A stretch of 64,000 bases of DNA, taken from Marinomonas spartinae (GTDB taxonomy: Bacteria > Pseudomonadota > Gammaproteobacteria > Pseudomonadales > Marinomonadaceae). Below are positions 343 to 50,070 of this stretch, in pieces. The notes beneath the pieces are model-generated. The model was not told where the DNA came from. It did no database searches and was given only the letters and a program-made list of their open reading frames with translations. The stretch covers positions 1 through 64,000 of the forward strand of contig NZ_FLOB01000010.1 in the NCBI RefSeq assembly GCF_900089775.1, written 5' to 3'. The stretch's first letter is position 1; each line of letters opens with the position of its first letter. Made by a program: the position numbers and the translations under genes.

Positions 343-351
343 GTATTTTTT

Positions 352-957
352 CTAAGTTTTTTTTAAATACTTTTTCCATATCGGCAGAGTCGGTATTTTA
401 GAGACAAGGAGCGGCACTAAAAAAACAGAAAACCAAATAGCTAATGAAGTGTCATCCTTCACTTGCCACCATAAATGAGCAATAACAGCGATAGCTGAAA
501 GGTACATAAGGCGATGAATTGACCTCCATCTTCGACCTAACAGGCGCATCATTCTTTTTGTACTGGTTATTGCTAGGACTGCCATAATGACCAGTGCAAT
601 CATGCCAACATATATATAGGGCTTTTCAATCAGATCCGAGCTAATCCAAGTCCAACTTAGGCCAGCAAACAAAACCAGATAGATAACAAAATGAAGCAAT
701 CCATAAAAAAAAGCCGTTAAACCGATAAAGCGACGGTATCGATTAATAACACGGAGCGGCTTGATTTTACCAATCCAGGTCATAGACAAAACCGCCACAA
801 CATATACCGAAGCCCAAATACCACTCAGCCTCATCAACAACTTTCCTGGATCAGGAAAATATTGCCCCATTAATAATGACACAAACATCCAGACAAAGGG
901 CAAGCTGAACAATATGAGTACATAAGGCTTTTCTCTTCTATCCCAAAATGCCGCCAC
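352..957 (-). CDS. msrQ: MsrQ, haem-binding membrane subunit of the MsrPQ system
   Basis: A 201-residue integral membrane protein with about six hydrophobic helices and membrane-facing His residues, matching the YedZ/MsrQ family in length and pattern. MsrQ binds haem b in the inner membrane and passes electrons from the respiratory chain to periplasmic MsrP, which repairs methionine sulfoxide in exported proteins. The start is GTG, with AGAAGGAA about 10 bases upstream. Only one base separates it from the msrP stop codon, so the two are almost certainly one transcript and translationally coupled. Its 3' end overlaps the A/T-rich region of the rRNA promoter that fires in the same direction. 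Confidence 0.93.
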   Translation of the reverse strand: MAAFWDRREKPYVLILFSLPFVWMFVSLLMGQYFPDPGKLLMRLSGIWASVYVVAVLSMTWIGKIKPLRVINRYRRFIGLTAFFYGLLHFVIYLVLFAGLSWTWISSDLIEKPYIYVGMIALVIMAVLAITSTKRMMRLLGRRWRSIHRLMYLSAIAVIAHLWWQVKDDTSLAIWFSVFLVPLLVSKIPTLPIWKKYLKKT

Positions 958-958
958 G

Positions 959-1951: not shown

Positions 1952-2013
1952 CTCGATACCCTCTCTTCAGTCAACTAGTAGACTGCTTATTGTTAGGATA
2001 GTTCCTCTACATC

Positions 2014-2053
2014 AAAAAAAGGCCCTCTTACATTATTGTAAGAGAGCCTTGTT
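2014..2053 (-). terminator. Rho-independent terminator after pssA
   Basis: On the minus strand a 12-base stem with tetraloop-sized loop (GGCTCTCTTACA / TGTAAGAGGGCC, one G-T pair) is followed by a run of seven T. It lies about 20 bases past the pssA stop and closes the hemL-pssA transcript before msrP. Confidence 0.9.
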
Positions 2054-2072
2054 CTTGATTTTAAGTATCAAA

Positions 2073-2885
2073 TTAACGAAATTTTGCCGATACCCTGCCC
2101 ATCAGACCCCACACCCCATACAGACAGAACAAGCCCATTAATACAATAGCAGGTTCCAATGCCGCGATAACGAAAGCCAATACCGCGATAAGCAGCACAA
2201 CAAATGGTACTCGTCCCTTAACATCAAGGTCTTTAAAACTACGATATTTGACATTACTCACCATGAGTAAACCGACGATAGGAACAAGCAATGCCATGAT
2301 TTCTGCTAGGCTCGCGCCCGCTATTCCAGAATCGTTTGCCGCCCAGATGACACCCGCTACAATGGCTGCGGCGGCTGGGCTAGGTAGCCCTGTAAAATAG
2401 CGTTTATCTTCCAAACCAATCATGGTATTGAATCGTGCCAGACGCAGTGCCGCTCCGACCGCATAAATAAAGGCAGCGATCCACCCAACTTTTCCCAAAG
2501 GTGCTAGCGCCCAAGTAAAGGCGACCAGTGCTGGTGCCAATCCAAAAGACACCATGTCTGCAAGAGAATCATATTGAGCACCGAAGGCGCTCTGAGTTCG
2601 TGTCATGCGGGCTACCCTGCCATCTAGACCGTCAAATACCATCGAAATAAAGATGGCGACAGCTGCGTGAGTAAAATTCCCATTCATCCCAGCGATAATA
2701 GAATAGAAACCAGAAAAAAGTGCTGCTGTTGTAAACAAATTTGGTAACAAATACACCCCTTTATGAGGCTGTTTCAACTCAACACTGTCTTCACTACTCT
2801 CCATTTCGTCTGGTGAATCATGCAATGAACGCTTTTCTGTTTCTTCTACCGACATTTCAAATACCTTTTCGAGAGGTTTCTTCAT
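2073..2885 (-). CDS. pssA: CDP-diacylglycerol-serine O-phosphatidyltransferase
   Basis: 270 residues. It joins CDP-diacylglycerol and L-serine to make phosphatidylserine, the precursor of phosphatidylethanolamine, in the inner membrane. The CDP-alcohol phosphatidyltransferase signature is complete: D88-G89, A92-R93, G102, D106 and D110 have the family spacing. An acidic, Ser-rich N-terminal tail (residues 1-42) precedes the first helix, which begins at YLLPNLFTTA. This is the integral-membrane type of Pss, not the E. coli phospholipase-D-like type. Its ATG overlaps the hemL stop by one base (TAATG), indicating translational coupling with hemL. A terminator follows. Pairing with a tetrapyrrole gene is not the usual ilvC-linked context of pssA. 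Confidence 0.93.
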   Translation of the reverse strand: MKKPLEKVFEMSVEETEKRSLHDSPDEMESSEDSVELKQPHKGVYLLPNLFTTAALFSGFYSIIAGMNGNFTHAAVAIFISMVFDGLDGRVARMTRTQSAFGAQYDSLADMVSFGLAPALVAFTWALAPLGKVGWIAAFIYAVGAALRLARFNTMIGLEDKRYFTGLPSPAAAAIVAGVIWAANDSGIAGASLAEIMALLVPIVGLLMVSNVKYRSFKDLDVKGRVPFVVLLIAVLAFVIAALEPAIVLMGLFCLYGVWGLMGRVSAKFR

Positions 2886-4168
2886 TAAATCAACTTAGCA
2901 AAAGAACGTTTAGCCGCTTCGATTGTATAATCAATATCTTCATTTGTGTGGGCCTGAGAGATAAAACCTGCTTCAAACGCAGCCGGAGCAAAGTACACCC
3001 CTTCTTCCAACATATAATGGAAGAACTGTTTAAACCGCTCAGTATTACACTGCTGAACTTCAGCAAAACTTGTCACTTTATCTGCTTCAGTGAAGAAAAA
3101 GCCAAACATGCCACCTTCGTTCACGACGCAAAAAGGCACACCTTGCTCATCAGCCACCCGCTTTAAGCCGGTCACTAATCTATGTGCTTTTTCCTCTAAC
3201 TGTGCATGAAAACCCGGCTCGCTAATTTTGTTTAGTACCGTCAACCCCGCCACCATAGCAACAGGATTTCCCGACAAAGTACCCGCTTGGTACACTGGCC
3301 CCAGAGGCGAAATATGCTCCATGATGGCTCGTTTACCACCAAACGCACCAACTGGCATGCCAGCACCAATAACTTTACCTAACGTTGTCAAATCAGGGAC
3401 AATATCAAAGCGCTCTTGAGCCCCACCTAACGCGACACGAAAGCCTGTCATCACCTCATCAAAAATCAATACGGCCCCAGACTCATCACACACTTGACGT
3501 AATGTTTCTAAGAACCCCTCAACAGGAGGGACACAGTTCATATTACCTGCTACTGGCTCCACGATAACACACGCAATTTGATCGCCAATATCAGCAAAAC
3601 ACTCTTTAACTTCCTGGCTATCATTGTATTGCAAGGTGACGGTATGCTGAGCAAGATCTGCTGGTACTCCTGGCGAATTCGGCACACCAAGAGTCAATGC
3701 ACCTGACCCCGCTTTCACTAACAACGAGTCAGAGTGACCATGATAGCACCCCTCGAATTTCACAATTTTATCTCGCCCGGTGTAGCCACGAGCCAAGCGG
3801 ATTGCACTCATGGTGGCCTCTGTCCCCGAGTTCACCATACGAACCATATCCATGGAAGGCACAAGCTCACAGACTTTTTCTGCCATGGTGATTTCCACTT
3901 CGGTAGGGGCTCCAAAACTCAAACCTTCTTCAATTTGCTCACGAACGGCCGACAAAACATCTGGATGAGAATGCCCCAAAATCATTGGTCCCCAAGAACC
4001 AACATAGTCGATATAGCGCTTTTTATCTTCATCATACAGATAAGCACCCTGCCCTTTTTGAAAAAACAAAGGCGTTCCACCAACACCATTAAAAGCTCGC
4101 ACTGGTGAATTAACACCACCAGGAATACGATGTTGGGCTCGTGCGTATAAATCTTCTGAACGGCTCAT
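2885..4168 (-). CDS. hemL: Glutamate-1-semialdehyde 2,1-aminomutase
   Basis: 427 residues, the normal family length. This PLP enzyme converts glutamate-1-semialdehyde to 5-aminolevulinate, the committed precursor of haem and other tetrapyrroles (C5 pathway). Lys265 in [10 protein letters not shown] is the Schiff-base lysine, and FDEVMTGFR carries the PLP-binding Asp. The start ATG has AGAGGAA about 3-8 bases upstream. The stop overlaps the pssA start. hemJ, another tetrapyrrole-pathway gene, lies just upstream in the same orientation (65-base gap), so hemJ-hemL-pssA may be co-transcribed. Confidence 0.97.
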
Positions 4169-4233
4169 AATTCCTCTAACTTCTCAATTAAAATACTGTA
4201 ATAAGTTGGTGCAAAGTCACGCGTCAACTTAAA

Positions 4234-4656
4234 TTAAAATGGTTTAACAACTACCAATATAACGATGGCAATCAACAAAATAACGGGCAGCTCGTTAAAC
4301 CAACGATAAAAGACGTGGCTTCGAGTATTACGGTCTTCTGCAAATTTTTTCAGCAACCGACCACAAGCATGATGGTAACCTAACAATACCAACACTAACG
4401 CAAGCTTGGCATGAAACCAACCAGCATGCATATAGTAAGAGGGATTGTAAGATACCAGCCACACACCAAACACAATGGTCGCAATCGCTGATGGTGTCAT
4501 GATACCTCGATATAACTTGCGTTCCATTATTTTGAAGCGAGCAATACTTTCAGCATCTGTACTGTTTGCGTGATAGACAAATAAACGGGGTAGATAAAAC
4601 AGTGCTGCAAACCAGCACACCAAAGAAATAATATGAAACGCTTTAACCCACAACAT
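4234..4656 (-). CDS. hemJ: HemJ-type protoporphyrinogen IX oxidase
   Basis: 140 residues from the ATG at 4656, chosen because AAGGA lies about 12 bases upstream and the HemJ family starts at this point. A longer frame to 4707 would run into the upstream channel gene. Four hydrophobic helices are visible, with the family's N-terminal His (VKAFHII) and WFHAKLAL, which supplies the conserved Trp and Lys. HemJ oxidises protoporphyrinogen IX to protoporphyrin IX late in haem synthesis. The gene starts one base after the stop of the ClC gene. Relation to CopD-like proteins is the only alternative, and size and motifs favour HemJ. Confidence 0.88.
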   Translation of the reverse strand: MLWVKAFHIISLVCWFAALFYLPRLFVYHANSTDAESIARFKIMERKLYRGIMTPSAIATIVFGVWLVSYNPSYYMHAGWFHAKLALVLVLLGYHHACGRLLKKFAEDRNTRSHVFYRWFNELPVILLIAIVILVVVKPF

Positions 4657-4657
4657 C

Positions 4658-6334
4658 CTAACGATCCTTAAATAAAAACTGATCCATCGCCCGACGGGAA
4701 ATGACACTTACCTGCTGGGATTTAGAAAATACCACCAAGACATCAGACGCTTGTGTTTGATGAAACCAATCCGCAACAGAGGCTAACGAGTCGGGATCCT
4801 CAAGTTTGTCGATAGAGGTAGACTCAACCGCTTCAAAAAGGTTCATCAGTATATGATCGCCTTCGGCAACAAGCCAAGGCTGAGGCCCCTGATTCAATGC
4901 TTCAAGAGCTTCCACCATATGAGCGCGTCTGGCAATACGCCAATTATCATCCACTCTAAAAGCTGCGAAGTCTAGGGTACTTGCCCCTAAATCTTTTACT
5001 TCTTCTGGGGATGCATAAGCAGGTAACACAACCACCTCCTCTGATACCGGCTGAACACTGTGCAGCATGAGATGGTGTTTAAACGGATTTAATGTATGGG
5101 ACAAGCCTGCAAAATGCAGTCGCGATACAAACACTGACTCTTCTTGAAAGATCAGCCTCATGATCAAGCAAGCTAATACAATGACGAATAGAGCAGGCAC
5201 AATGGCCTCAGAAGAGTGCGTCATTTCCACCACGGTAATTAATGCTGTTAAGGGGGCTTGGAAACAAGCGGCCATCATGCCTGCCATACCCAATAAGGCA
5301 AACAGGGCCAACTCATGATGAATCCCCATCCCAGCGCCAAAAACAGAGGCCACCTGAACTCCCGCAACGCCCCCAATAATTAACGTCGGTCCAATCATGC
5401 CACCAGGAATGCCTAACCCAATGGTAAAAGAAGTAAGCAGCGTTTTCGCCACTAAAAAGACCAGCAAGGAATACATCAAGGTTTCACCTGATAAAGCCTT
5501 AACCAAGGGATCATATCCCCCACCCAAAATTTCAGGTAAGTAATAAGCAGCCAAGGACGTGACCATCGCCACAAGAGAAAATCGCGTCCAAATGGGTAAG
5601 CGACTTAAAGGCCATAGTATTTTTTGCACCCTATTAAAGAGCAAGGCTAAAACAACGATGGAGAGTACCAACGTTAAACATGCCAGTAAGAGATCTAGAT
5701 TTAGTAAGGTGGCAGAAAAATCACTGACCCGAAAAACACTTAACGCCCCCAAAAAATATTGACTAACCAGCATCCCCACCACAGAGGAAAGTAAAACAGG
5801 CAACACATATTGCACTCGGTATTCTAAAAAAATAACTTCAAAGGCAAATAAAACGCCCCCTAACGGGGTCTGAAACGACGCGGCTATTGCGCCAGACACA
5901 CCGCAAGCCAATAGGGTTTCAACACCAAATTGGGGTAAACGGTTCCGTTGAGCTAACAAACTACCAAAGGTTGCGCCTATATGAACGGCAGGACCTTCTT
6001 TACCTATTGATAACCCCCCCGCCAAAGCAATGGCGACGGAGAAAAATTGTACGATACCATTCACCACGGGCAATACCCCTTGGTGATAATTCAAACGTTC
6101 AATGACATAAGGAATGCCCAGCTTATGATATTTAGCAGGCAGCCAAATGAAAAATACGACCAATACAAAACAGGAAATGATTGGCAATAAAGCTCTCTGC
6201 CAATCAGGCATTGCCGCAAAACCATCTTCACCACCAAACATAAAATGTTCAGCAGGCCACTGAACAAGCCAATAAAGCAGCACCATTAGTAGGCCACTCA
6301 AAATGCCGCACACAGCCCCCAACCAAGACAACAA
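4658..6334 (-). CDS. ClC-family chloride channel / Cl-:H+ antiporter, start uncertain
   Basis: 558 residues from a TTG at 6334. ClC signatures in order: KLGIPYVIERL (the GSGIP region), GKEGPAVHIG (GREGP region), and GIPGGMIGP (GxFxP region). The final ~130 residues are soluble and look like a CBS pair. The reading frame continues upstream without stop to about 6424 and encodes family-like residues (KSNEDLLLL). No good start lies in that frame. An ATG at 6371 with an ideal ribosome site (AAAGGA) is out of frame by one base: removing one A from the run of five at 6360-6364 would join it in frame. The TTG start would still retain the first membrane helix. Transport activity is inferred from the family. 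Confidence 0.88.
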   Translation of the reverse strand: MLSWLGAVCGILSGLLMVLLYWLVQWPAEHFMFGGEDGFAAMPDWQRALLPIISCFVLVVFFIWLPAKYHKLGIPYVIERLNYHQGVLPVVNGIVQFFSVAIALAGGLSIGKEGPAVHIGATFGSLLAQRNRLPQFGVETLLACGVSGAIAASFQTPLGGVLFAFEVIFLEYRVQYVLPVLLSSVVGMLVSQYFLGALSVFRVSDFSATLLNLDLLLACLTLVLSIVVLALLFNRVQKILWPLSRLPIWTRFSLVAMVTSLAAYYLPEILGGGYDPLVKALSGETLMYSLLVFLVAKTLLTSFTIGLGIPGGMIGPTLIIGGVAGVQVASVFGAGMGIHHELALFALLGMAGMMAACFQAPLTALITVVEMTHSSEAIVPALFVIVLACLIMRLIFQEESVFVSRLHFAGLSHTLNPFKHHLMLHSVQPVSEEVVVLPAYASPEEVKDLGASTLDFAAFRVDDNWRIARRAHMVEALEALNQGPQPWLVAEGDHILMNLFEAVESTSIDKLEDPDSLASVADWFHQTQASDVLVVFSKSQQVSVISRRAMDQFLFKDR

Positions 6335-6462
6335 AAGTAAATCTTCGTTGCTCTTAATGTTTTTGAACCATTTATCCTTTAGATTTAACGGAGTCAGAGC
6401 ACTACCTCTCTTAGGAAGATATTAAAAACGACAAACAAACGCATTTTATAAGGTGTCCAGTT

Positions 6463-6894
6463 CTAATAACGATCTAATCGTCTTGCCAGACACATATGTG
6501 TCACCACTTTATGAATATTCGGCCAAGAATCAATATCACTACGAATATCATGTAGACGACTCATGGTCGGCGCTTCTACTAATAAAATAAGATCCACATC
6601 ACCACTAATAGAATGCGCTAACTTTATTTCGGGTATCCTATCAATATACGGCTGAATAAGCTGACATGATAGAGGACGAAAAGTCAGTGCTAAATAAGCA
6701 GTAACAGCTTGAACAGAGTCTGCTTTAATATGTGCATGATACCCTGTAATCATGCCATTCTCTTCTAAACGCCTAATTCGATCTGCAACCGCCGAACGAG
6801 ACAAATTAATTTGTTTACTTAATTCAGTAACAGAACGCCTTGCATCATCGACTAACAGGGCAATTAACTTTTGATCATATTTATCTAATTGCAT
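6463..6894 (-). CDS. Lrp/AsnC-family transcriptional regulator
   Basis: 143 residues: an N-terminal helix-turn-helix (residues 5-60, with LSRSAVADRIRRLEENG as the recognition region) and a C-terminal RAM domain (about 65-140) that normally binds an amino acid and drives oligomerisation. The gene is divergent from a YjeH-like amino-acid permease, and the 180-base gap probably holds the shared operator. Control of that permease is inferred from this layout. The effector is not known. Confidence 0.88.
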   Translation of the reverse strand: MQLDKYDQKLIALLVDDARRSVTELSKQINLSRSAVADRIRRLEENGMITGYHAHIKADSVQAVTAYLALTFRPLSCQLIQPYIDRIPEIKLAHSISGDVDLILLVEAPTMSRLHDIRSDIDSWPNIHKVVTHMCLARRLDRY

Positions 6895-7074
6895 GTATTA
6901 CAACTCTTTTATGTGTTCAACACTAATAGTGGCAATCTTTCCAAAACCATCAATATGAGCGTCATTCCGTGAAAATGACGGGATATGCCCTCTGTTTGCT
7001 AGATCCACTCTCACACGCATTCGCCTATGATGCTCTTATGCGCTCGTGCTCACCTTGATTATCAGGATAAACTC

Positions 7075-8349
7075 ATGAAATATCAGAAAACCTTAGGGCC
7101 GATTCAAGGCATGGCAATGACCGTCACGACGTTTGTTGGAACAGGACTCATGCTATTGCCTGCTTTATCAGTGACCAAGGCAGGTGCTTTTTCCTTCTAT
7201 GCTTGGCTAATAACCGCATTCATCTCCCTTCCCATTGCCTTTGTCTTTGCATTTCTCGGTAGCCGATTCCCCTCCGCTGGAGGCGCATCGCATTATATTG
7301 GTAAACAGTTTGGAGAAACAGTAGAGCGTGCCGTAGGGTGGCTATTTCTCAGTATTTTATTAGTCGGTCCAACCGTGGCGATCAAAATTGCAGCGGCGTA
7401 TCTTGCCGTGGCACTCAACCTAGACGAACGCTACATTTTTGCACTGAGTATTGCGACCTTACTTATTATGACACTGTATGCCTTGGCTGGGGCTGAAAAC
7501 TCATCTAAAGCACAAGTATACATTGTCATCTTGTTAATTCTCTGCGTTATCACCCTCGCTTGGAAAGGCAACTTAAGCGCTGCCACCACTTCTATAGAGA
7601 CACCTCGCGATTGGCTAAGCTGGAAAACAACGCTCTTGTCCATTGGCACCATCTTTTGGTGTTTTCTTGGCTTAGAAGTCATGGCTCACTTAGGCGCGGA
7701 ATTTAAAAACCCCGCGCGGGATTTTCCGATTGCTCTATTTGGTGGTATGACCATTGTAGTGCTCCTATACCTCATCGTCGTATTATTAGTCAGCTATCAT
7801 CATACCTATGGTGACGACCTCACTAATAGCCAATCGCTCGCCTTGTTAGTTGGCCATCTATTTGGTGAAAACACTAAACGCCTCTTTGCTGGCGTAGCCT
7901 TTATCATCGCCTTTACCAATGTTGGTATGTATCTGATCGGATTTGCTCGAATGGTTCAAACTTTGGCAGCAAAAGGAGCTCTTCCATCAACCTTTGCGCC
8001 CTTATCGAAAAAAGGCTCCCCCACCCGCGCGGTCATCCTTGTTAGCTTGGTAAGCTTACTTTCCTTGCTTACCTTTCATTATAGCGATGGTGCTATGAGT
8101 ATGTTAATAGAGATGACCAATGGTGCATTTATTTTGATTTATGGCCTGACCTCAATCACAGGATTACACCTATTAAAAGGCAAATACCGACTCTTTGCCG
8201 TCTTGGCTTGCGGCTCGAGTCTATTAGTCGCCTCCTTCATGGGGACGAACCTGCTCTTTGCGCTCAGTGCCTTCTTACTCGCCATACTGTTTGAGCACTA
8301 TAAAGAAAGAAAAAGACGCATTCATGCTCCAAAAATTCATGTACAATAG
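7075..8349 (+). CDS. YjeH-like APC-family amino-acid permease
   Basis: 424 residues from the ATG at 7075, chosen because AGGA lies 8 bases upstream and the protein then begins MKYQKTLGPIQG, the family's usual first segment. About 12 membrane helices. FVGTGLMLLPAL carries the broken-helix glycines of the APC fold. The tract RFPSAGGASHYIG and the segment EFKNPARDFP match the YjeH group, whose E. coli member exports methionine and branched-chain amino acids. The divergent Lrp/AsnC gene is its likely regulator. Substrate and direction are inferred from the family. Confidence 0.85.
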   Translation: MKYQKTLGPIQGMAMTVTTFVGTGLMLLPALSVTKAGAFSFYAWLITAFISLPIAFVFAFLGSRFPSAGGASHYIGKQFGETVERAVGWLFLSILLVGPTVAIKIAAAYLAVALNLDERYIFALSIATLLIMTLYALAGAENSSKAQVYIVILLILCVITLAWKGNLSAATTSIETPRDWLSWKTTLLSIGTIFWCFLGLEVMAHLGAEFKNPARDFPIALFGGMTIVVLLYLIVVLLVSYHHTYGDDLTNSQSLALLVGHLFGENTKRLFAGVAFIIAFTNVGMYLIGFARMVQTLAAKGALPSTFAPLSKKGSPTRAVILVSLVSLLSLLTFHYSDGAMSMLIEMTNGAFILIYGLTSITGLHLLKGKYRLFAVLACGSSLLVASFMGTNLLFALSAFLLAILFEHYKERKRRIHAPKIHVQ

Positions 8350-8414
8350 CTTCCATTAAGCAGAACATTTACCAGACATGTCTAATGACATGACGCTATT
8401 AGCAGGAGAGTAAT

Positions 8415-8927
8415 ATGCCACTATTAGACAGTTTCCGCGTAGACCATACACGTATGCATGCCCCAGCCGTTCGAGTTGCAAAATCCATGTCGACACCAAA
8501 AGGCGACGATATTACCGTCTTCGACTTACGTTTTTGTGTACCAAACGAAGAAATTCTTTCTGAAAAAGGCATTCATACACTAGAGCATTTGTTTGCTGGC
8601 TTCATGCGCGAACACCTAAATAGCGATAGTGTTGAAATCATCGATATTTCACCTATGGGTTGCCGAACAGGCTTCTACATGAGCCTTATTGGTACTCCCT
8701 CTGAAAACGCTGTCGCTAACGCTTGGAAAGCCGCCATGGAAGACGTATTGCAGGTGAAAGCCAAAGCCGATATTCCAGAGCTAAATGAATATCAGTGTGG
8801 TACTTACGAAATGCATTCTTTAGAAGAAGCGCAAGACATTGCGAGGAAAATTCTAGACCGTGATGTAAAAGTAAACAGCAACGAAGAGCTGTATCTTAGC
8901 GAAGACTTCTTAAAAGAACACAGCTAA
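8415..8927 (+). CDS. luxS: S-ribosylhomocysteine lyase
   Basis: 170 residues, standard LuxS length. It splits S-ribosylhomocysteine to homocysteine and 4,5-dihydroxy-2,3-pentanedione, the precursor of autoinducer-2, in the activated methyl cycle. The metal site HTLEH (His54, Glu57, His58), the catalytic Cys83 in MGCRTGFY and the third ligand Cys in [11 protein letters not shown] are all present. ATG is preceded by GGAGAG. A terminator follows, so it is probably monocistronic. Whether AI-2 is a signal here or only a by-product cannot be told from this window. Confidence 0.97.
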
Positions 8928-8949
8928 GACCTGTTGCTATGCACAAATT

Positions 8950-8975
8950 AAAGGCGGCTCCATGTCGCCTTTTTT
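8950..8975 (+). terminator. Rho-independent terminator after luxS
   Basis: AAAGGCGGC, a short loop, then GTCGCCTTTTTT gives a GC-rich stem with a T run, starting 22 bases past the luxS stop. Confidence 0.85.
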
Positions 8976-9044
8976 AGATCGAAAAATCTAGGGGATTTTA
9001 AATCAGCATTCAACTGATTTATTTTCTTTCCATTTAAAGAAGCA

Positions 9045-9680
9045 TTAACTTCGACTCGAAGAGGCCAGTAACATACTCGCAAGTACGAATAAGCTTCCCA
9101 TTCCCTTATTCAACCTAAGCATGCCTTTTTGGCTTTTTATCAAACGCCGAATCTGTTTACCACTTACCGCATAAATATAGGCAGCAATAAACTCACACAA
9201 AATAAATGTCATGCCAATTACAAAAAACTGAGGGGCAACTGGGCTGTTCAAATCAAGAAGTTGTGGAAAAATCGCAGTAAAAATCAAAATGGCTTTGGGG
9301 TTACTGATCGCAATCATAAATTCTTGTCGAATTCTGGGAAAGTGCCCACGAGAAACGACACTGTTTTCTGACTCGTGTTCATCCAGCGTCATCGCAGCGC
9401 TACGCCATGTTTTAATACCAATATAGAGTAGATAAACAACGCCAGCCCACTTAACCATGTTAAACCAAAACATGGATGACACAATGACAGCGCCCAATCC
9501 TAAGGCGGACACTGTCATCAAAATCATAAAGGCAAGATTACGTCCAGATGCGGCAGCTACTGCTTTTCTTGGCCCTACCTGCATGCCGTTATACATGGCA
9601 GTAAAATTATTTGGCCCTGGAGACAAAGCCAACAATAATAAAAAGGGCGCAGTAACCAACCAAAGATGCCAGCTCATCAT
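9045..9680 (-). CDS. LysE/RhtB-family amino-acid exporter (copy 1)
   Basis: 211 residues, about six membrane helices, with the family N-terminal signature SPGPNNFTAMYNG and the later conserved segment ISNPKAILIFTAIFPQ. Members export lysine, threonine, homoserine or similar amino acids. AAGGAAAG lies just before the start. The next upstream gene on this strand (9861-10496) encodes a paralogue of exactly the same length that aligns without gaps and is about two-thirds identical by eye. A terminator between them suggests separate transcripts. Substrate unknown. Confidence 0.88.
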   Translation of the reverse strand: MMSWHLWLVTAPFLLLLALSPGPNNFTAMYNGMQVGPRKAVAAASGRNLAFMILMTVSALGLGAVIVSSMFWFNMVKWAGVVYLLYIGIKTWRSAAMTLDEHESENSVVSRGHFPRIRQEFMIAISNPKAILIFTAIFPQLLDLNSPVAPQFFVIGMTFILCEFIAAYIYAVSGKQIRRLIKSQKGMLRLNKGMGSLFVLASMLLASSSRS

Positions 9681-9809
9681 TTCTTTCCTTCTAAACCCAA
9701 AAAATTGATCAATAATAAAACAATAACGAAATCGTTATAGGAGTGCAATTTGCTATTACTCCGTGAAGGCATTATGACAAGGTTTATCCAACAAACTCGT
9801 ATTTTGGAC

Positions 9810-9838
9810 AAAAAAATCGGAGCCAATGCTCCGATTAT
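9810..9838 (-). terminator. Rho-independent terminator after LysE copy 2
   Basis: On the minus strand AATCGGAGC-ATTG-GCTCCGATT is a perfect 9-base stem followed by a run of T. It separates the two LysE paralogues. Confidence 0.9.
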
Positions 9839-9860
9839 TTAACTGTCTATAAGAAGAAAA

Positions 9861-10496
9861 TTAAGCTCGCGTCGCCATGGCTAGAAATGCACTCGCCGCA
9901 ACAAATATACCACCCATACCACGGTTGAGGTTTTTCATTCCCTTAGGGCTACGAATCAAACGTCGAATTTGTTTGCCGCTCATAGCATAGACATAAGCCG
10001 CAATAAATTCTGTCATACAAAAAGTCAGCCCCATCCAAAAAAACTGCATGGGAACAGGCTGAGTTAAATCCAGCATTTGAGGGAAAATAGCGGTAAACAA
10101 CAACACCGCTTTAGGGTTACTAATCGCTACTAAAAACTCTTGGCGTATTCTTGCCCTATGACCTCGTTTCGCCCTTGTACCATTTTCCATTTCATGTTCT
10201 TCAAGCACTACTGACGCACTGCGCCACGTTTTTACACCCACGTAAAAGAGGTACAGCACCCCAACCCATTTCACAACGCTAAACCAAAATGCAGAAGAGA
10301 CAATGATGGCCCCCAGACCCAGCGCCGAAATCAGCATCAAAATACTGAAAGCAACATTTCGCCCTACTACAGCAATTACCGCTTTCGTGGCCCCCACCTG
10401 GATACCATTGTGCATGGCAGTAAAATTATTTGGCCCTGGTCCTAAAGATAGCAACATCAATAATGGCGCCATAGCCAACCACATACTAAACGTCAT
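9861..10496 (-). CDS. LysE/RhtB-family amino-acid exporter (copy 2)
   Basis: 211 residues, gapless paralogue of the product of 9045-9680, with GPGPNNFTAMHNG near the N-terminus and ISNPKAVLLFTAIFPQ in the middle. About six membrane helices. It has a weak ribosome site and a structured 5' leader with a terminator-like hairpin (see 10497-10899), which may regulate it. The two copies differ mostly in loops and in the acidic/basic linker around residues 96-113, which suggests duplication followed by modest divergence. Substrate unknown. Confidence 0.88.
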   Translation of the reverse strand: MTFSMWLAMAPLLMLLSLGPGPNNFTAMHNGIQVGATKAVIAVVGRNVAFSILMLISALGLGAIIVSSAFWFSVVKWVGVLYLFYVGVKTWRSASVVLEEHEMENGTRAKRGHRARIRQEFLVAISNPKAVLLFTAIFPQMLDLTQPVPMQFFWMGLTFCMTEFIAAYVYAMSGKQIRRLIRSPKGMKNLNRGMGGIFVAASAFLAMATRA

Positions 10497-10899
10497 AGAA
10501 ATTTATACCCTATAAAAAGATAAACCGCAGCAAGAAAACGGCGGTTAGAATGGTTTTTCACTTGAAGTCTAATAGCCGTTAAAACAACACATTAAAAACA
10601 CCCATCAGACCTCTGAATTCGGGCGCAACTTTACCCTGTAATTCCACCTATGTCAGCCCTCACGGGAGCCTTTTACTACAGAAAAAAGTGCAGTTATTAA
10701 GGTTATTGAATATCGCGACAATAAAAGCTAATGACACGACGGAAACAAACCAAAGGAAAGCGATGAATTTACTTTAAAATCGAAGGAAAGCGCCCAACAA
10801 AACTTTTCATTTTAACTTCTGGTGAATCCTTCAAGCCTATAAAATAGGCTCTCCTATCCGCTCAAGAGCAACCTAACACTATAAGGATGATTCACCATT
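10497..10899. promoter_or_regulatory. 403-base intergenic region with a candidate structured leader for LysE copy 2
   Basis: No gene is seen. On the minus strand a hairpin formed by 10537-10549 and 10568-10580 (AACGGC/GCCGTT plus TTAGA/TCTAA, one 2x2 mismatch) is followed by TTTT and sits about 40 bases before the start of LysE copy 2, like an intrinsic terminator in a leader. Upstream of it, 10615-10670 is locally GC-richer than its flanks and contains CCC-GUGA-GGG, a short GNRA-capped stem. It does not match any riboswitch consensus I can recall. The plus-strand promoter for the EamA gene must also be here. Confidence 0.4.
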
Positions 10900-11775
10900 A
10901 TGCTCATTTCACAGCTATTTTTATGGACAACCGCAGCGATTTGGGGCTTTGCTTTCGTTGCTCAAACAGTAGGGATGGACAGCTTAGGGCCATATAGTTT
11001 TAACGCCGCACGTTTTCTATTAGCCACCTTATCTTTACTGCCGCTACTGTTTATTTTTAAATCCAAGCAGCAACAGGATAAGAAGCATTTGTGGTTAGGC
11101 GGTATTTTAGGAGGAACCTGTCTGTTCTTTGGCTTTACGTTTCAGCAAGTTGGCTTGCAATATACAACGGCAGGCAACGCGGGTTTTATCACCAGTATGT
11201 ATATTGTCTTTGTGCCTATCGTAGGTATATTACTTAAGCATAAGGTAGAGTCTCATACTTGGCTGGGCATTATTTTAGCGCTCATTGGCTTATATTGCTT
11301 AACGATTGGCCCGCACTTCAATATCAATAAAGGCGATGCAATTGAACTGATTGGCACCCTGTTTTGGACAGGACATGTCATCATTATCGGCTATTTTTCT
11401 CGCTATGTTTCGGCCGTTCCGTTGTCCATCATTCAGTTTCTCATAGCAACCATCTTGGGGACTGTAACCGCTTTTTTCACAGAATCGCCAGCTCTAGCTG
11501 ACTTTGAAATGGCATGGTGGCCATTGGTGTACGCTGGTGTTGCTTCCTCCGGCATTGCCTTCACCTTGCAAACCCTTGGTCAACGTAATGTATCGGCCAG
11601 TATCAGCGCCTTAATTTTATCGTCCGAAGCGGTGTTTGCCCTCATCGGCGGATGGCTTTTGATGAACGAAGTATTATCGACTCGTACCTTAATCGGCTGC
11701 GGGTTCATTTTGTTGGGCATGATTATCAGCCAGTGGCCACGCCAAACTAAAGCCGCTGCTATCTCGGTTGCTTAA
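10900..11775 (+). CDS. EamA-family (DMT) transporter
   Basis: 291 residues with ten predicted membrane helices in two EamA halves, the family's standard size. The first half begins TAAIWGFAFVAQ, and the second contains AGVASSGIAFTLQTLGQ and ends in a helix typical of RhaT/YdcZ-like drug/metabolite exporters. AAGGATG lies 11 bases before the ATG. It ends 6 bases before the convergent Lrp/AsnC gene. Substrate cannot be assigned; amino-acid or metabolite export is usual in the family. Confidence 0.88.
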   Translation: MLISQLFLWTTAAIWGFAFVAQTVGMDSLGPYSFNAARFLLATLSLLPLLFIFKSKQQQDKKHLWLGGILGGTCLFFGFTFQQVGLQYTTAGNAGFITSMYIVFVPIVGILLKHKVESHTWLGIILALIGLYCLTIGPHFNINKGDAIELIGTLFWTGHVIIIGYFSRYVSAVPLSIIQFLIATILGTVTAFFTESPALADFEMAWWPLVYAGVASSGIAFTLQTLGQRNVSASISALILSSEAVFALIGGWLLMNEVLSTRTLIGCGFILLGMIISQWPRQTKAAAISVA

Positions 11776-12838: not shown

Positions 12839-14551
12839 TTAGGTTCGCTCCGTCTTGCTCAAGAACATATCGCGCATAGAACCACGAGGCACTTGCATTG
12901 GATAAACGTGTTCTTCTGGGTCCACATAGCAATTGATGAAAACCAACTGGTCAGTCATGGCAAAAGCTTCTTCCATCTTACTATCAAGCTCATCTTTCGT
13001 ACGAATTTCGACGTATTTATGACGATAAGCATCCATCAATACTTTAAAATCCGGTAATGAATCCAAGTAAGAATTAGAATAGCGCCCTTCATAGTTCATA
13101 TCTTGCCATTGACGAACCATGCCAAGGTAACCATTGTTCAGGCAGAGAATTTTCACAGGCAAACCATACTGCAAGCAGGTAGAAAGCTCTTGAATATTCA
13201 TTTGAATACTGCCTTCACCGGTGACACATACAACGGTTTCTTGCGGAAAGCTCATTTTGATGCCCATCGCCGCAGGCAAACCAAAGCCCATCGTACCCAG
13301 ACCACCTGAATTCACCCAGCGATTTGGTTTATCAAATTTATAGTACTGAGCGGTAAACATCTGGTGCTGACCAACATCAGAAGCGACATAAGCATCCCCT
13401 TTTGTTGCACGCCAACACGCTTCAACGGCCGCCTGAGGTTTGATTTTTTCACTGCTGGTATCATAGCGACCACCATGAACCGAACGCCATTCAGTAATCT
13501 GTTTCCACCAATTAACCAGTTCCTCTGTATTCGAAGTTTGCCCTTCTATTAGGGACAACATTTCGTCAAGTACCTGCTGTACAGGACCAACAATAGGCAC
13601 ATCTGCACGGATGGTTTTTGAGATCGCGGCAGGGTCAATATCAATATGAATGATTTTGGCGCTTGGACAAAACTTATCAGGATCATTGGTTACACGGTCA
13701 TCAAAACGAGCCCCCACAGCTAAAATAACATCGCTGTGATGCATCGTCATGTTGGCCTCATAGGCGCCATGCATACCTAACATCCCCACAAACTGACGAT
13801 CCGTTGCAGGATAACAACCTAAACCCATTAAGGTATTGGTCACGGGGAAGTTCAAGGCTTGAGCCAAATTCGTCAGTAAATCCGACGCTCCCCCCATAAT
13901 CACGCCACCACCAGCATAAATAATAGGGCGTTTTGCTGCCAACAGCAGATCTACCGCCTTTTTAATTTGACCACTGTGGCCTTTTGTTGGCGGCGTATAG
14001 GAACGAATAGAGACAGATTCAGGGTATTTGTACTCGTATTTATCCCCTGGCATGGTCATGTCTTTTGGCACATCAATGACCACTGGACCTGGACGACCCG
14101 TGCTGGCAATGTGATACGCCTTTTTCATAATCATTGGAATTTCAGCAGGATGCTTTACAGTGAAACTGTGTTTCACAATTGGGCGAGACACCCCGACCAT
14201 ATCGGTTTCTTGGAAAGCGTCTTCACCGATCAAGTAACTCATTACTTGCCCACAAATGACCACCATCGGAATGGAGTCCATATAAGCCGTTGCAATCCCT
14301 GTCACCGTATTGGTCGCACCGGGCCCTGAGGTCACAAGCACAGTACCAGGTTTGCCAGTTGCACGAGCATAGCCATCGGCCATGTGCGTTGCCGCCTGTT
14401 CATGTCTTACCAGAACGTGCTTTACATCGGATTGACGATGCAAGGCATCGTAAATATGAAGAGCGGCACCGCCCGGATAACCATAGATATACTCAACTCC
14501 CTCATCTTTAAGGAAGCGGGCGATCATTTCGCCACCAGATAATAACTCCAC
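12839..14551 (-). CDS. ilvI: Acetolactate synthase large subunit
   Basis: A ThDP- and FAD-dependent enzyme that condenses pyruvate with pyruvate or 2-oxobutyrate. I place the start at the GTG at 14551, giving 570 residues beginning VELLSGGEM, because AGAGGG lies at ideal distance and other large subunits begin there. ATG codons at 14575 and 14599 give longer forms with poor ribosome sites. Motifs: [14 protein letters not shown] with the ThDP glutamate further on in [16 protein letters not shown], and the GEGSIQMN / [12 protein letters not shown] metal-ThDP region. Operon with ilvH. No leader peptide rich in branched-chain codons was found upstream. Confidence 0.95.
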
Positions 14552-15000
14552 TTTGTTACCCTCTATAGTATTCATCTGTCTGCTAATTCTAATCATCATG
14601 TTAGTGCAGCTATTGTAACCGCATACGACAAACAGATTAAAGTTGATAAAACGAAGTTTGCTAAACTAATGAGGCAACCAGAAAAAAAGTAACACTCAAA
14701 CGCAATAAATCGCAGTTTTTACACTGTCCGCGTCTTTTCGCGAGGGGAATAAAATACGGTATACTTAACCCTATTCTATTTGTGCTAATCAGAGTCTATC
14801 TGATTGAGATGGGCTGATTGGCCCATAAGAAGAAGTCTTCGACAGGGTGTTGTCGAATTAATTGAATCCCAATTTTCGCAACACAACCAGAGACTGTCAA
14901 CTAGAATATCTCTATACTAAGAAAAAGAGCGTGGATAAGACTTGCCCTAAAAAACACTTCGTGGTGTGATAGCGGCATAATTTGACTAGGAGTTTTGAAC
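14552..15000 (+). promoter_or_regulatory. Intergenic region with three consecutive hairpins ahead of the small gene at 15001
   Basis: This gap holds the ilvI promoter (minus) and the promoter and leader of the small plus-strand gene. TATACT at 14760-14765 is a possible -10. Beyond it three perfect short hairpins lie in series: ATCAGA/TCTGAT (14788-14803), ATGGGC/GCCCAT (14809-14826) and TTCGACA/TGTCGAA (14838-14857). They end about 140 bases before the start codon. None has a T run, so they look like a folded 5' leader or small RNA rather than terminators. Function unknown. Confidence 0.35.
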
Positions 15001-15261
15001 ATGGCTAATGAGCTAAGCCAACAACGAATTATTGATGAATTCTTACGTTGTTTCCGAAAAATGTTGATGGATCCAGAGCTTGCTGGGGAGTTAATTCGCA
15101 TTGCGAAAGAAAATATTCATGAGCCGAATGCCTACCAACGTATTGCTGAAGAAGTGTCTAATCAAACGACTTTAAAAATACAAGAAAATCATACCGAGGC
15201 CGACCGTATGTTCATCAAGCTACTGATGGACGTGGTAAAAGGCGACTCGCAGCTTTATTGA
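15001..15261 (+). CDS. Small conserved-looking cytosolic protein of unknown function
   Basis: 86 residues from the ATG at 15001, which has AGGAG 9 bases upstream; a TTG two codons earlier is less likely. The product is soluble, mostly helical and acidic, with no signal peptide or membrane segment. I do not recognise the family. The strong ribosome site, codon use like its neighbours and the long structured leader argue it is a real gene. It stands alone between ilvI (divergent) and queG. Confidence 0.7.
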   Translation: MANELSQQRIIDEFLRCFRKMLMDPELAGELIRIAKENIHEPNAYQRIAEEVSNQTTLKIQENHTEADRMFIKLLMDVVKGDSQLY

Positions 15262-15288
15262 TTTATTATTTAGTGATTTATTGCTTCT

Positions 15289-15316
15289 GATTAGACGGCT
15301 AAATGGCCGTCTAATC
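15289..15316. repeat. Perfect 11-base inverted repeat just upstream of queG
   Basis: GATTAGACGGC (15289-15299) and GCCGTCTAATC (15306-15316) with a 6-base loop. It lies 28 bases after the small gene and ends 14 bases before the proposed queG start. No T run follows on either strand, so it is not a classical terminator. It may end the upstream message, or fold over the queG start region. Confidence 0.8.
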
Positions 15317-15330
15317 CCACAAAATACCGA

Positions 15331-16416
15331 TTGGCTATTCTCTTGTTACCACCTGCGCTTTCTCATCCTGACGACCTGACTAACTTAGCAAACCAGATAA
15401 AACACTGGGCCGTTGAGTTTGGTTTTGCCGATGCTCGCATTGTCGCCCCTGATCTTGAACAATATAAAGAGGGTTTTAAAAAGTGGTTAGACAACGGCTA
15501 TCACGCCGGAATGGACTATTTAGCCAACCATGGTGATATGCGCTTCCATCCAGAACAACTACACGCGGGCACACGTCGGGTCATTTCCCTACGCATGCAC
15601 TATTTGCCGCAATCGGTTGAAACCGTTGAGCGACTTAAAACAAAAGAAAAAGCTTACATAGCCCGTTATGCACTGGGGCGTGACTATCACAAACTCATCC
15701 GCAAACGTTTAAACCAGTTAGCAAAAAAGATTCAAGAAGTAATCGGTGACCATGGCTATCGTGCTTTTGTCGATAGTGCCCCTGTACTAGAAAGGCAAAT
15801 TGCTGAACAAGCAGGCATGGGCTGGATTGGCAAAAACACCCTGTTACTGACACCCAAAGCGGGCAGTTGGTTTTTACTCGGGGAGATTTTCACCAACCTC
15901 CCCCTGCCCGTCGATCAGCCCACCAGAACTCGACATTGTGGCAGTTGTTCCGCCTGTTTGACTCAATGCCCAACGGATGCATTTGTTGAGCCTTGGGTAC
16001 TGGATGCTGGCAAATGTATTTCCTATTTGACCATTGAGCATAAAGGCCCTATTCCTGTTGAACTAAGAAGCAAGATGGGCAATCGTATTTTTGGTTGTGA
16101 CGACTGTCAATTAGTCTGCCCTTGGACAAAGTTTGCCAAACACACCGAAGAAGACGACTTTCAACCCCGACATGATCTGGATTCAGAAGATCTGATCACG
16201 TTATTTGCTTGGGACGAAGAGACGTTTTTAAAAAATACTGAAGGGTCACCGATCAGGCGAACTGGCTATGAAAATTGGCGACGAAACATTGCGGTGGCAT
16301 TAGGTAATGCCCCCTCTAACAAAGAGACGATCGACGCACTCAAAAAAGGGCTAGTAAGCAGCTCTGAATTGGTCAATGAACACATTCATTGGGCCTTAAA
16401 ACAGCATCAACAATAA
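15331..16416 (+). CDS. queG: Epoxyqueuosine reductase
   Basis: 361 residues. A cobalamin- and 2x[4Fe-4S]-dependent enzyme that reduces epoxyqueuosine to queuosine in tRNA anticodons (last step of Q34 synthesis). CGSCSACLTQCP and GCDDCQLVCPW supply the two iron-sulphur sites, with C...YLTIEHKGPIP between them. AEQAGMGWIGKNTLLL is a family signature. No ATG or Shine-Dalgarno sequence is present at the N-terminus. TTG at 15331 is the best start, with another TTG four codons later. The cobalamin need gives a loose link to the riboswitch-controlled CbiM gene at 36702. Confidence 0.95.
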   Translation: MAILLLPPALSHPDDLTNLANQIKHWAVEFGFADARIVAPDLEQYKEGFKKWLDNGYHAGMDYLANHGDMRFHPEQLHAGTRRVISLRMHYLPQSVETVERLKTKEKAYIARYALGRDYHKLIRKRLNQLAKKIQEVIGDHGYRAFVDSAPVLERQIAEQAGMGWIGKNTLLLTPKAGSWFLLGEIFTNLPLPVDQPTRTRHCGSCSACLTQCPTDAFVEPWVLDAGKCISYLTIEHKGPIPVELRSKMGNRIFGCDDCQLVCPWTKFAKHTEEDDFQPRHDLDSEDLITLFAWDEETFLKNTEGSPIRRTGYENWRRNIAVALGNAPSNKETIDALKKGLVSSSELVNEHIHWALKQHQQ

Positions 16417-47073: not shown

Positions 47074-50070
47074 ATGGATAAAATCATAACAGACGACAAA
47101 GACTGTCAAATCAACTGTGCGAATCCTACCGAATCATTAGTGAATATGTTCGTTGAGATGATTCAGAAAGGACGCATAGAAAAAGGACAGTGTCCTGCTC
47201 TACGACCCGTTTTTTTAAAGCCCCATGGCGTCGCAAAAGGACGTTTCATTGTTAATAAAGATCTTCCTGAAGAGCTGAAAATAGGATTATTTGCAGGAAC
47301 CGAGTACCCACTTTGGGCACGTTTTTCTTCAGACACCTTACCAAGTATCAGTGACTACAAAACCACCTGCGGTCTTGCTTTAAAACTGTTTAATACACCG
47401 ACACCTAAAATATTCGGTTTGCCGGATGAAACTACATTCGACATTATCATGCAAAACTACCCTGTATTTTTTGTCGATACCGCTACCGATATGTGTGAAT
47501 TTACCCGAGCAGGTGTCGTTGAAGGCGACTATGGACCCTATCTAAAAGCACACCCTAAAACAGCTAACATACTAGACCAAATGGCAACACCTGTTGGCTC
47601 AGTTCTAGCCTCACCCTACTGGGGGATTTTGCCCTTTTCTTTAGGCGAAAAACAGTACGTAAAATACATGCTAAAACCAACAATCAAAGCAAAGGAACCG
47701 ACCCAGCCACCAACCAATCCAACCTATTTAGCACAAGAAATGGCTGATCGACTCGGTAAAGAAGACATACGCTTTGAATTTTGCCTACAATTACGAACCA
47801 ATCCAGACACCATGCCCCTTGATGAAGCAACCGTTGAATGGTCAGAAGACGAAAGTCCTTTTATTCCTGTTGCTGAGATCCTATTTCCTATGCAGGATAT
47901 TAACGCTCGTGGACAAGCGGAATATGGTGAAAACCTGAGCATGAATATTTGGCGAGTCACGAAAGATCATCAACCTCAAGGCTCAATTGCCCAGGTCAGA
48001 CGTGATGTCTACGCAGCCTCAGCACAACAGCGCCGAAACATAAATGGGGTGCCTGACGGTGAGCCAGTCTCCGCTAAACCGAAAGATCAAACACCACTAG
48101 GGAAAGACGACGTGATTGTTCGAGCCGCAATCCATCCAGGCATTGGAGTGGCTCGTGTTGGCAATGCGGAAACCGAATACTATATTGGTCCAGAAGTCCC
48201 CCACCCTGAAGCAGCACCAAAAGACTTTTACCGCACACCTCAAGGCACACTAAAACGCCAAGCTGCCCGTTTTCGAATCTACGGTTATAATGCGGCTGGG
48301 GAAGTCGTTCGTGAACTCACCAGTCAAAATGCGGATATTTCTTGGCGCGTTCAAGTGGCGAATACCAAAGCCAACTGGTTCTACTTTATTACCGCAATGG
48401 ACATACCTGAGAGCAAAGACCTAATCGTTAAGCGACGCAACCCAGACGTAAAGGGAACATCCCGAGAAGAACTTATTATCGCACCTGAACCCATCAATAT
48501 TTCAGGAGACTGCCAATCGGGAGCAGAGTATTGCTTTGACAAAGGCAAGTTTAAAGGCGAAAACGTCTATTTAGGTGAATTACAAACCGATGATAAAGGT
48601 CGACTATTGTTCCTAGGAGGACATGGTATTTCTCAATCACCCTCTGGTTTGCCACCTTATGATGCCAGCAATGGTGATTCCTTTAACAATGCTACGGACT
48701 GGTTTGACGATATGTCGGATGGTCCAGTCAACGCAAATGTTTGCATTAATGGCCGGTCTATTCCAGTGGAAGGCTCATGGGTTATCACTGCTCCACCAAA
48801 CTTTGCTCCCGATATTATTGGCTGGCGTACCATGTATGATTTAATGACTGACGTGTATGTCAATAATGGCTGGCTTCCTGTCCCAGAAACCACCTCATTT
48901 ACTCACGATGTCTTACCACAATTGCAGCGCCTATCTAACTTACAGTGGGTAAACAAAGGCTTCTCCGCCATGTTCGGCGCTGGTGGGCAAATGAACTTTG
49001 ATGATCCAAGCTTTATTTCCAAGCTCGCTCTAAAACCAATAGGAGTAGGAATACACAGACAAGATCCCTATGGTGAACTGCGCCAAATTATGCTCAATAG
49101 CTTCCGGCCCTATCAAACGCAGTCTAATTGCCCGCAATTATGGCCGTGGCTATATGGCGATGATTTTGGCGGAGACCTTTTACAAGCATCTCCTAATACT
49201 ATGTTGGCGCTACCCTCTTTACAGCAACTCCATCTACAACGCTGGGCTGCTGGCGAATTCGAAGAAGACTGGGATCCAAATTACCAACCTCCCCGTGACC
49301 TTGAACATGTTCCCTTGGATCAACAACCCGCCATGCTAGATAAAGCGGCGATGCATTATTGTTTAGCAGATGCTTTTCATCCCGGCTGTGAGATGACCTG
49401 GCCAATGCGCCATGCCACTCTATATGCCGCTCCTTTTCGTATTCGTCAAAGCTCGGTAGCAGAACGCCCCAATCAGTGGGGAGACAAACTGTCTCAGTCT
49501 AAAGCGCTAGCAATTAATGGTCCACTGCATGCCCAGGTGGCTGGTGGAATTACTCGCTGGATGGGGTTACCTTGGCAGGGCGACACAGCGTATTGTCGAG
49601 CTGGCTATAATCATGAGTACGATCTTTATCAACCCAGTTTTTGGCCTGCTCGTGTTCCCAACACCATTCTTACGGAAGACGATTATAAAACCGTGATGAA
49701 TGAAAGCCTTTCTAGAAAAGATCGCATTATCGCCTTTAACAAGCGGCGTAGTTGGAATCGCTTTATTGATCGGCCAGAAGCAGACGGTGCTACACCCAAT
49801 ATTGCTCAAGTCATGAATCGCATGATCGCTGAATTTGCGGAACAAGGCATCATTGAAGCGCGCCCTGGCATTAAAGATGATCCTGATTTCCCAACCGTTA
49901 TCTATGTAGAGAACAACGGTTACATGGAACAAGCAAAAGCCATGCTCAAAGCGACACTGACCCCTGAGCCAGGCTCTCGTGAAGCCAAATTACAAGAGGC
50001 AGGATGGGCTAGTGAAGAGCAACATCAAGATGCGCTACGTCTGCGCCAACGCAAACCCACCTCGCGTTAA
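47074..50070 (+). CDS. LodA-like quinoprotein oxidase fused to an N-terminal catalase-like domain
   Basis: 998 residues, against about 700 for LodA. Residues ~25-330 resemble the catalase fold: His51 in KPHGVAKGRF, ARFSS, CGLALKLF, and Asn128 in MQNYPVFF match the distal His, ARFS, RGFAVKF and distal Asn segments. The usual haem-ligand motif RxFxYxD is not seen. Residues ~347-990 are LodA-like, starting IVRAAIHPGIGVARVGN. Cys772 in FHPGCEMTW and Trp829 or Trp834 in RWMGLPWQGD are candidates for the cysteine tryptophylquinone. LodA/GoxA enzymes oxidatively deaminate lysine or glycine and release H2O2. No signal peptide. AAGGGAT precedes the ATG. Substrate unknown. Confidence 0.85.
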   Translation: MDKIITDDKDCQINCANPTESLVNMFVEMIQKGRIEKGQCPALRPVFLKPHGVAKGRFIVNKDLPEELKIGLFAGTEYPLWARFSSDTLPSISDYKTTCGLALKLFNTPTPKIFGLPDETTFDIIMQNYPVFFVDTATDMCEFTRAGVVEGDYGPYLKAHPKTANILDQMATPVGSVLASPYWGILPFSLGEKQYVKYMLKPTIKAKEPTQPPTNPTYLAQEMADRLGKEDIRFEFCLQLRTNPDTMPLDEATVEWSEDESPFIPVAEILFPMQDINARGQAEYGENLSMNIWRVTKDHQPQGSIAQVRRDVYAASAQQRRNINGVPDGEPVSAKPKDQTPLGKDDVIVRAAIHPGIGVARVGNAETEYYIGPEVPHPEAAPKDFYRTPQGTLKRQAARFRIYGYNAAGEVVRELTSQNADISWRVQVANTKANWFYFITAMDIPESKDLIVKRRNPDVKGTSREELIIAPEPINISGDCQSGAEYCFDKGKFKGENVYLGELQTDDKGRLLFLGGHGISQSPSGLPPYDASNGDSFNNATDWFDDMSDGPVNANVCINGRSIPVEGSWVITAPPNFAPDIIGWRTMYDLMTDVYVNNGWLPVPETTSFTHDVLPQLQRLSNLQWVNKGFSAMFGAGGQMNFDDPSFISKLALKPIGVGIHRQDPYGELRQIMLNSFRPYQTQSNCPQLWPWLYGDDFGGDLLQASPNTMLALPSLQQLHLQRWAAGEFEEDWDPNYQPPRDLEHVPLDQQPAMLDKAAMHYCLADAFHPGCEMTWPMRHATLYAAPFRIRQSSVAERPNQWGDKLSQSKALAINGPLHAQVAGGITRWMGLPWQGDTAYCRAGYNHEYDLYQPSFWPARVPNTILTEDDYKTVMNESLSRKDRIIAFNKRRSWNRFIDRPEADGATPNIAQVMNRMIAEFAEQGIIEARPGIKDDPDFPTVIYVENNGYMEQAKAMLKATLTPEPGSREAKLQEAGWASEEQHQDALRLRQRKPTSR

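Follow-up and report, generated by a model that had tools for sequence, protein, structure and literature searches.

The window, i.e. the whole 64,000-nucleotide stretch of Marinomonas spartinae DNA that was analysed, contains at 47074–50070 one open frame of 998 codons, whose product very probably joins an N-terminal catalase-fold domain (hereafter N-domain) to a LodA-type oxidase (Table 1). The first-pass annotation had proposed these two parts in one polypeptide, and Pfam, profile matches to PDB entries and relatives of the same architecture bear this out; taken whole, however, its observation is partly confirmed and its interpretation partly supported, and three of its residue calls are corrected below. 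The 369-aa product of the adjoining gene matched the NCBIfam models for GoxB (3.3e-62), LodB (5.3e-54) and QhpG (8.9e-50), all under their curated cut-offs. Upstream of the fused gene lies a gene for a GAF-PAS-GGDEF protein (Pfam), and downstream lie nspC (above cut-off) and a gene that resembles carboxynorspermidine synthase but scores under the cut-off. Promoter and terminator scans gave a signal near that of shuffles, and PADLOC assigned no family to the fused protein. GC content is 0.438 in the N-domain, 0.478 in the LodA part and 0.431 in the window, a base composition that does not settle whether the N-domain was gained recently.

Table 1. Features of the fused gene and its maturase neighbour, with window coordinates. 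Fractions give the domains that share the residue.
Feature	Position	Strand	Basis or remark
lodA-type gene, 998 aa	47074..50070	+	Predicted catalase-fold haem domain plus LodA/GoxA-family CTQ oxidase; single ORF, Pfam, relatives with same architecture
N-domain, residues 1-335	47074..48078	+	Catalase fold, y4iL-like
Linker, ~residues 336-353	48079..48132	+	From end of N-domain homology to LodA_N start at 354
LodA_N, residues 354-571	48133..48786	+	Pfam PF17990, 252.5 bits
LodA_C, residues 704-857	49183..49644	+	Pfam PF18417, 127.8 bits
lodB/goxB-like FAD maturase gene, 369 aa	50083..51192	+	12 bases past lodA stop, GGAGG between
R44, haem-coordinating Arg equivalent (R64 of coral AOS)	47203..47205	+	Alignment; R-x-x-[distal residue] spacing
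F47, at catalase distal-His position	47212..47214	+	HMMER alignment
H51, taken earlier for distal His	47224..47226	+	Not aligned with distal His in the alignments
R83, haem-coordinating Arg equivalent	47320..47322	+	13/13 LodA-linked, 49/49 stand-alone
N128, distal Asn equivalent	47455..47457	+	13/13 LodA-linked, 32/49 stand-alone
R309-x3-Y313, proximal haem-ligand motif	47998..48012	+	13/13 LodA-linked
R320, haem-coordinating Arg equivalent	48031..48033	+	Y+7, as coral AOS Y353/R360; 13/13 LodA-linked, 49/49 stand-alone
H769, aligned with GoxA His583	49378..49380	+	Cys there in 6vl7 chain
D837, aligned with GoxA Asp678	49582..49584	+	52/52 LodA domains
C841, predicted CTQ cysteine (LodA C516)	49594..49596	+	52/52 LodA domains; 3weu alignment ends at 517 = query 842
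W857, predicted CTQ tryptophan	49642..49644	+	52/52 LodA domains; GoxA position 697, printed X in 6vmw

The oxidase part spans residues 354–857, and the Pfam search suggested by the first-pass annotation placed both LodA_N and LodA_C above their curated cut-offs in the 998-aa protein. Against the NCBIfam models for GoxA (NF038173) and LodA (NF038172) the same protein scored 390.7 and 159.3 bits, below the respective cut-offs of 750 and 600, and it is therefore a member of the family without being either of the named enzymes. Its CTQ cysteine and tryptophan match C516 and W581 of LodA, the tryptophan via GoxA position 697, and the cofactor would thus form from Cys841 and Trp857. Both residues, together with D837 (aligned with the position named Asp678 in PMC7876137) and W834, are invariant across an alignment of 52 LodA domains (9 fused, including that of the window, and 43 unfused), whereas position 772 is Cys in 19 and position 829 is Trp in 27 of the same 52, so that Cys772 with Trp829 or Trp834, the tryptophylquinone pair suggested earlier, is not the cofactor pair. 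Position 769 is His in 9/9 fused and 21/43 unfused LodA domains. A second lodA-like gene of 800 aa, without a catalase-fold domain, lies elsewhere in the window's genome (contig 15, 5699–8101).

The catalase fold of the N-domain was recognised through profile matches to PDB entries and a predicted model compared with the PDB, and on this count the catalase-like character claimed at the outset stood; its Pfam score did not, as the protein reached 16.4 bits against PF00199 (monofunctional haem catalase), under the gathering cut-off of 25. The model was built with only four sequences in its alignment and is weak near residue 47 (residues 31–49 fall under pLDDT 50). Several structural alignments begin at residue 49, which they pair with position 129 of E. 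coli KatE; as the catalytic His of KatE is residue 128, also by the titles of variant structures, this pairing is shifted by one from the sequence alignment, and the register of the model there is unsure. We class the N-domain as y4iL-like from its homology to a plasmid match on pNGR234a (32.4% identity, E 3e-27), which is annotated as a catalase and was identified as y4iL from its replicon and PMC4417212. In another genome (G109, 943–3864), a y4iL-like catalase-fold domain is joined to a haem peroxidase domain of the animal type, a further case in which this fold is combined with an oxidase.

Residues expected around a catalase haem are largely retained. The proximal Tyr motif, earlier reported as not evident, is present as R309xxxY313 in every intact LodA-linked domain, i.e. 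every domain fused to or adjacent to a LodA-type oxidase, and among stand-alone relatives R309 is found in 49/49 and Y313 in 47/49. R44 is conserved in 12/13 LodA-linked domains, the exception being an ORF piece with a late start. In coral AOS, as in catalase, the haem is coordinated by R64, R102 and R360, with H67, T66 and N137 on the distal side and Y353 on the proximal side (PMC5617202); its R64–H67 and Y353–R360 spacings of 3 and 7 recur in the window protein, where R44 + 3 falls on F47 and Y313–R320 is again 7. Phe47, not His51 as first thought, takes the distal-His place in HMMER alignments with the His of 3e4w, 4qol and human catalase (weak 8.9-bit stretch). The earlier doubt whether the domain is a true catalase thus proved sound for another reason: the proximal Tyr is there, and it is the distal His that has given way to Phe.

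This replacement extends to all LodA-linked domains sampled. In a 78-row alignment, position 47 is Phe in 14/14 LodA-linked domains (11 fused, 2 beside lodA/lodB and 1 fused with an internal deletion), whereas 64 stand-alone relatives have His (56), Asn (4), Gln (2), Gly (1) or a gap (1), and never Phe. The copy with the deletion (L095) was set aside for the 13-row counts; R83 is retained in it, N128 falls in a gap, and positions 309, 313 and 320 come after its break, where the alignment carries little meaning. A further sample, added after the pattern had been noticed, had Phe in 4/4 fused and His in 9/9 stand-alone copies; three of the fused copies are from Azospirillum and near kin of one already counted, the fourth is from a phage contig, and one stand-alone copy is 97% identical to a counted Acinetobacter copy. 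In total, Phe occupies position 47 in 18/18 LodA-linked (fused, adjacent or decayed) and 0/73 stand-alone domains, of which 65/73 have His, with the 18 representing one branch and one event rather than independent cases. Phe47 has stayed fixed while the 12 other LodA-linked domains span 41–63% identity to that of the window, and S86, D87, T98, Q127, L167, R226, G280, G285, R294 and A306, among others, are likewise fixed in 13/13 LodA-linked domains and found in at most 5/49 stand-alone ones. The catalase-fold family tolerates change at position 47, given Asn or Gln there in 6/49 closer stand-alone relatives. H51 is present in 35/49 of the stand-alone relatives, also where the distal His is kept. 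As read from these alignments, the replacement of the distal His by Phe47 across LodA-linked domains is what is new here.

The search for the same fusion elsewhere, proposed with the original observation, recovered it in 12 other records, of which 11 are complete open frames and one (G248) runs off its contig. All genome searches started with a loose first look, such that a miss is not proof of absence. In the family sample, whose 48 genomes belong to a single genus, the N-domain was matched only in the window's genome, and unfused orthologues were found in three. Fused genes were found in the class sample (369 genomes) in the own genome and G248, with a deletion in G221; in the order sample (293 genomes) in the own genome and G582; and in the phylum sample (398 genomes) in the same two, along with G728, in which lodA, lodB and the N-domain are separate neighbours. 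Another class (337 genomes) contributed G1126, G1185 and G1072, as well as G1262, cut by contigs, and a scan of named genomes returned five loci, one of them fused (L003). Some part of the query was matched by 149 of 72,556 plasmid records, and at least 80% of it in one place by seven, five as intact single frames (H1, H3–H6) and two broken (H2, H8). Scans of viral contigs yielded one fused and one stand-alone copy, and scans of them with three stand-alone queries yielded no match. The fused copy lies beside lodB and adjoins a phage endolysin gene (IMG/VR 3300042338_001090, 6068–11122) and may be phage cargo or a prophage edge. That assembly or frame error merged two genes at the window's locus, as the absence of the N-domain from same-genus orthologues might hint, is ruled out to a near certainty by the fused open frames in the 12 other records, the annotation of several fused plasmid genes as one CDS and the clustering of the window N-domain with other fused N-domains.

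The N-domain tree (62 rows, after 16 of the 78 with <280 aligned residues or E > 1e-24 were left out) separated 13 LodA-linked domains (11 fused, 2 adjacent) from 49 stand-alone ones across a 100/100 branch, with the window N-domain sister to that of L003 (99/73). The LodA tree covered 40 rows, without partial and weaker matches; some of its branches are long and its root is only drawn. In it the window gene grouped with three unfused same-genus genes (100/100), then with fused L003 (97/92) and then with fused L114 (100/100), and three further unfused genes (G1183, G1070, G1273) likewise fell among fused rows. The best LodA tree has five switches between fused and unfused states, at least three of them forced by starred branches, counts that alone cannot tell gain from loss of the N-domain. 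Loss is favoured over gain, since the N-domain and the LodA part share the same nearest fused kin. It is likely that the fused state is old in the window's part of the LodA tree and was lost in the unfused sisters; the unfused genes of the genus have probably lost the N-domain, with one loss and two losses indistinguishable (AU p 0.405). An independent recent gain by the window gene is disfavoured, as both its N-domain and its LodA part have L003 as their nearest fused kin.

The three same-genus orthologues (68–74% identity) begin at the LodA part, and no N-domain homologue was found in the 18–19 kb regions around them, nor at five more unfused loci. On this comparative record, the N-domain is dispensable for the oxidase over evolution. 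In G728, the N-domain is encoded by a separate gene directly after lodA and lodB (9201–11108), whose 635-aa product carries ~300 extra residues and, searched whole, had no Pfam match at E 0.01. In S. medicae, the N-domain has its own CDS before a broken lodA, and this locus may be a decayed fusion.

Besides lodB, no conserved third partner was recognised in eight fused and four unfused loci and two annotated plasmid records, a survey in which ORF starts were judged by eye and family searches run for few neighbours, and which may therefore have overlooked a partner. In two same-genus genomes, an unfused lodA/lodB pair has YcaO and TfuA genes next to it (G003, 13831–16235, called by eye; G043, 2349–5950, tested with Pfam and also with an S8 peptidase gene), which suggests a peptide-modification cluster around the oxidase at these loci. 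On plasmid pRlvC of Rhizobium leguminosarum (57–9976), fused lodA and lodB lie near genes for an IetA-like ATPase, an S8 peptidase and a metallo-beta-lactamase-fold protein, and these neighbours match defence models.

With moderate confidence, and from sequence comparison, we infer that the protein is a CTQ oxidase which releases H2O2 and bears a haem domain, the latter not an ordinary catalase but devoted to haem chemistry linked to its partner or to sensing. The LodB-like flavoprotein encoded next door would help to turn Cys841 and Trp857 into CTQ, and the oxidase would then act on a primary amine or amino acid and release H2O2, as reported for its kind. The N-domain is predicted to bind haem through Y313, and fast splitting of H2O2 by it appears unlikely, given that Phe47 stands where catalase and coral AOS have their distal base. 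Its task may instead be haem chemistry on the oxidase product, with or without H2O2, or the sensing of peroxide or another ligand. The lack of ordinary catalase activity seems to us well supported, and a role actively linked to the partner somewhat better founded than not, as Phe47 domains occur in our sample only joined to or beside a LodA-type oxidase, which points to a shared task. Counting against this explanation, H51 is near and conserved and could in principle act.

Self-protection, in which the N-domain would still act as a catalase or peroxidase, though perhaps slowly, and clear the H2O2 made by the oxidase, possibly with His51 as base, is the obvious guess for a catalase fold on a peroxide-making oxidase. 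It would fit the retention of the fold, the Tyr ligand and the distal Asn, and the LodA-like family is known to release H2O2 (PMC4699246, in whose accessible text the word 'catalase' is absent). Pfam catalase was not matched in the genomes of the window and three genus-mates (0/4 whole genomes), and the window's genome has only a KatG-type peroxidase to offer in its place. In three of these same four genomes a KatG-type peroxidase-family match was found, the window's among them. The uniform loss of the distal His, with Phe in 18/18 copies, argues against self-protection, and His51, present also in relatives that keep the distal His, is no new substitute; moreover, unfused sisters exist without the N-domain. 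We therefore consider self-protection improbable. An ordinary catalase is disfavoured, with no distal His in place and a Pfam score short of the cut-off, and the suggestion in the first-pass annotation that the domain consumes H2O2 in this manner is now unlikely; sensing or using H2O2, which the annotation also proposed, may still apply.

We also consider it improbable that the N-domain is a pseudo-enzyme, binding haem or no more than folding, with a part in assembly, stability or LodB docking. The catalytic His has been lost while the fold was kept, and the domain can vanish while the oxidase stays, both as would be expected of such a part; however, the haem residues and distal Asn are invariant at 41–63% identity, beyond the needs of a scaffold, and in G728 the N-domain is a separate polypeptide.

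A more specific version of the partner-linked role, which we offer only tentatively, is that the LodA-linked domains form a separate and so far undescribed catalase-fold branch with a Tyr-ligated haem and a hydrophobic Phe for the distal base. Having evolved together with a CTQ oxidase, such a domain would not squander peroxide as a catalase does; the peroxide, along with the imine or carbonyl product of the oxidase, would feed a haem reaction such as oxygenation or oxidative coupling. If the N-domain does perform haem chemistry, the catalase fold would here support a reaction in the absence of the distal His common to coral AOS and catalase. No function has been assigned to the fusion since it was reported in 2015, and the loss of the distal His makes the question one that can be assayed.

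The architecture itself is not new, and the protein is one more member of a described set. Campillo-Brocal et al. (2015; PMC4417212) listed 21 LodA-like proteins of 963–1072 aa with N-terminal pfam00199 (Table 3 therein), noting cd08152 and haem binding for these fusions and placing all of them in group III, in which they form no subgroup and from which no protein had been characterised at that time. In the accessible part of that paper the distal residue is not discussed, with 'histidine' occurring once, in a reference. Two of the 21, from Azospirillum lipoferum 4B and Azospirillum sp. B510, are among our fused copies, matched by organism and length, and both have Phe. The window protein has the architecture, length and lodB-like neighbour of this set, with no structural difference found, and probably belongs to group III, an assignment based on the shared fusion rather than on the published tree. 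The fusion was thus already described, and its characterisation is not found in the accessible text of PMC4417212 or recognised in open-licence PMC literature, beyond which more may exist; to this extent the initial remark that no characterised protein of this architecture was known holds.

GoxA glycine oxidase and LodA lysine 6-oxidase have the LodA domains, the CTQ Cys and Trp and the maturase neighbour in common with the window protein, and GoxA also the equivalents of His583 and Asp678. Both are distant from it (phmmer E 4.4e-36 and 1.5e-27), and the chains in their solved structures are too short to accommodate a catalase-fold N-domain. In coral AOS a catalase-fold haem domain is likewise N-terminal to a peroxide-making enzyme, but there the product of the partner is a fatty acid hydroperoxide, and the AOS keeps its distal His67 (PMC5617202). 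Coral AOS is reported not to scavenge H2O2 despite that His, while another AOS does so somewhat (PMC5617202), so residue 47 alone does not decide function. Stand-alone y4iL-like proteins and 3e4w, a 33-kDa catalase-related protein of M. avium paratuberculosis, share the fold and haem-pocket residues of the N-domain; mostly they keep the distal His, as does 3e4w, whereas the LodA-linked domains have Phe and are separate in the tree. Oxidases are also paired with haem enzymes in RebO/RebD and VioA/VioB, and should the tentative reading of a peroxide-fed haem reaction be true, the fused protein would be a one-chain counterpart of these pairs.
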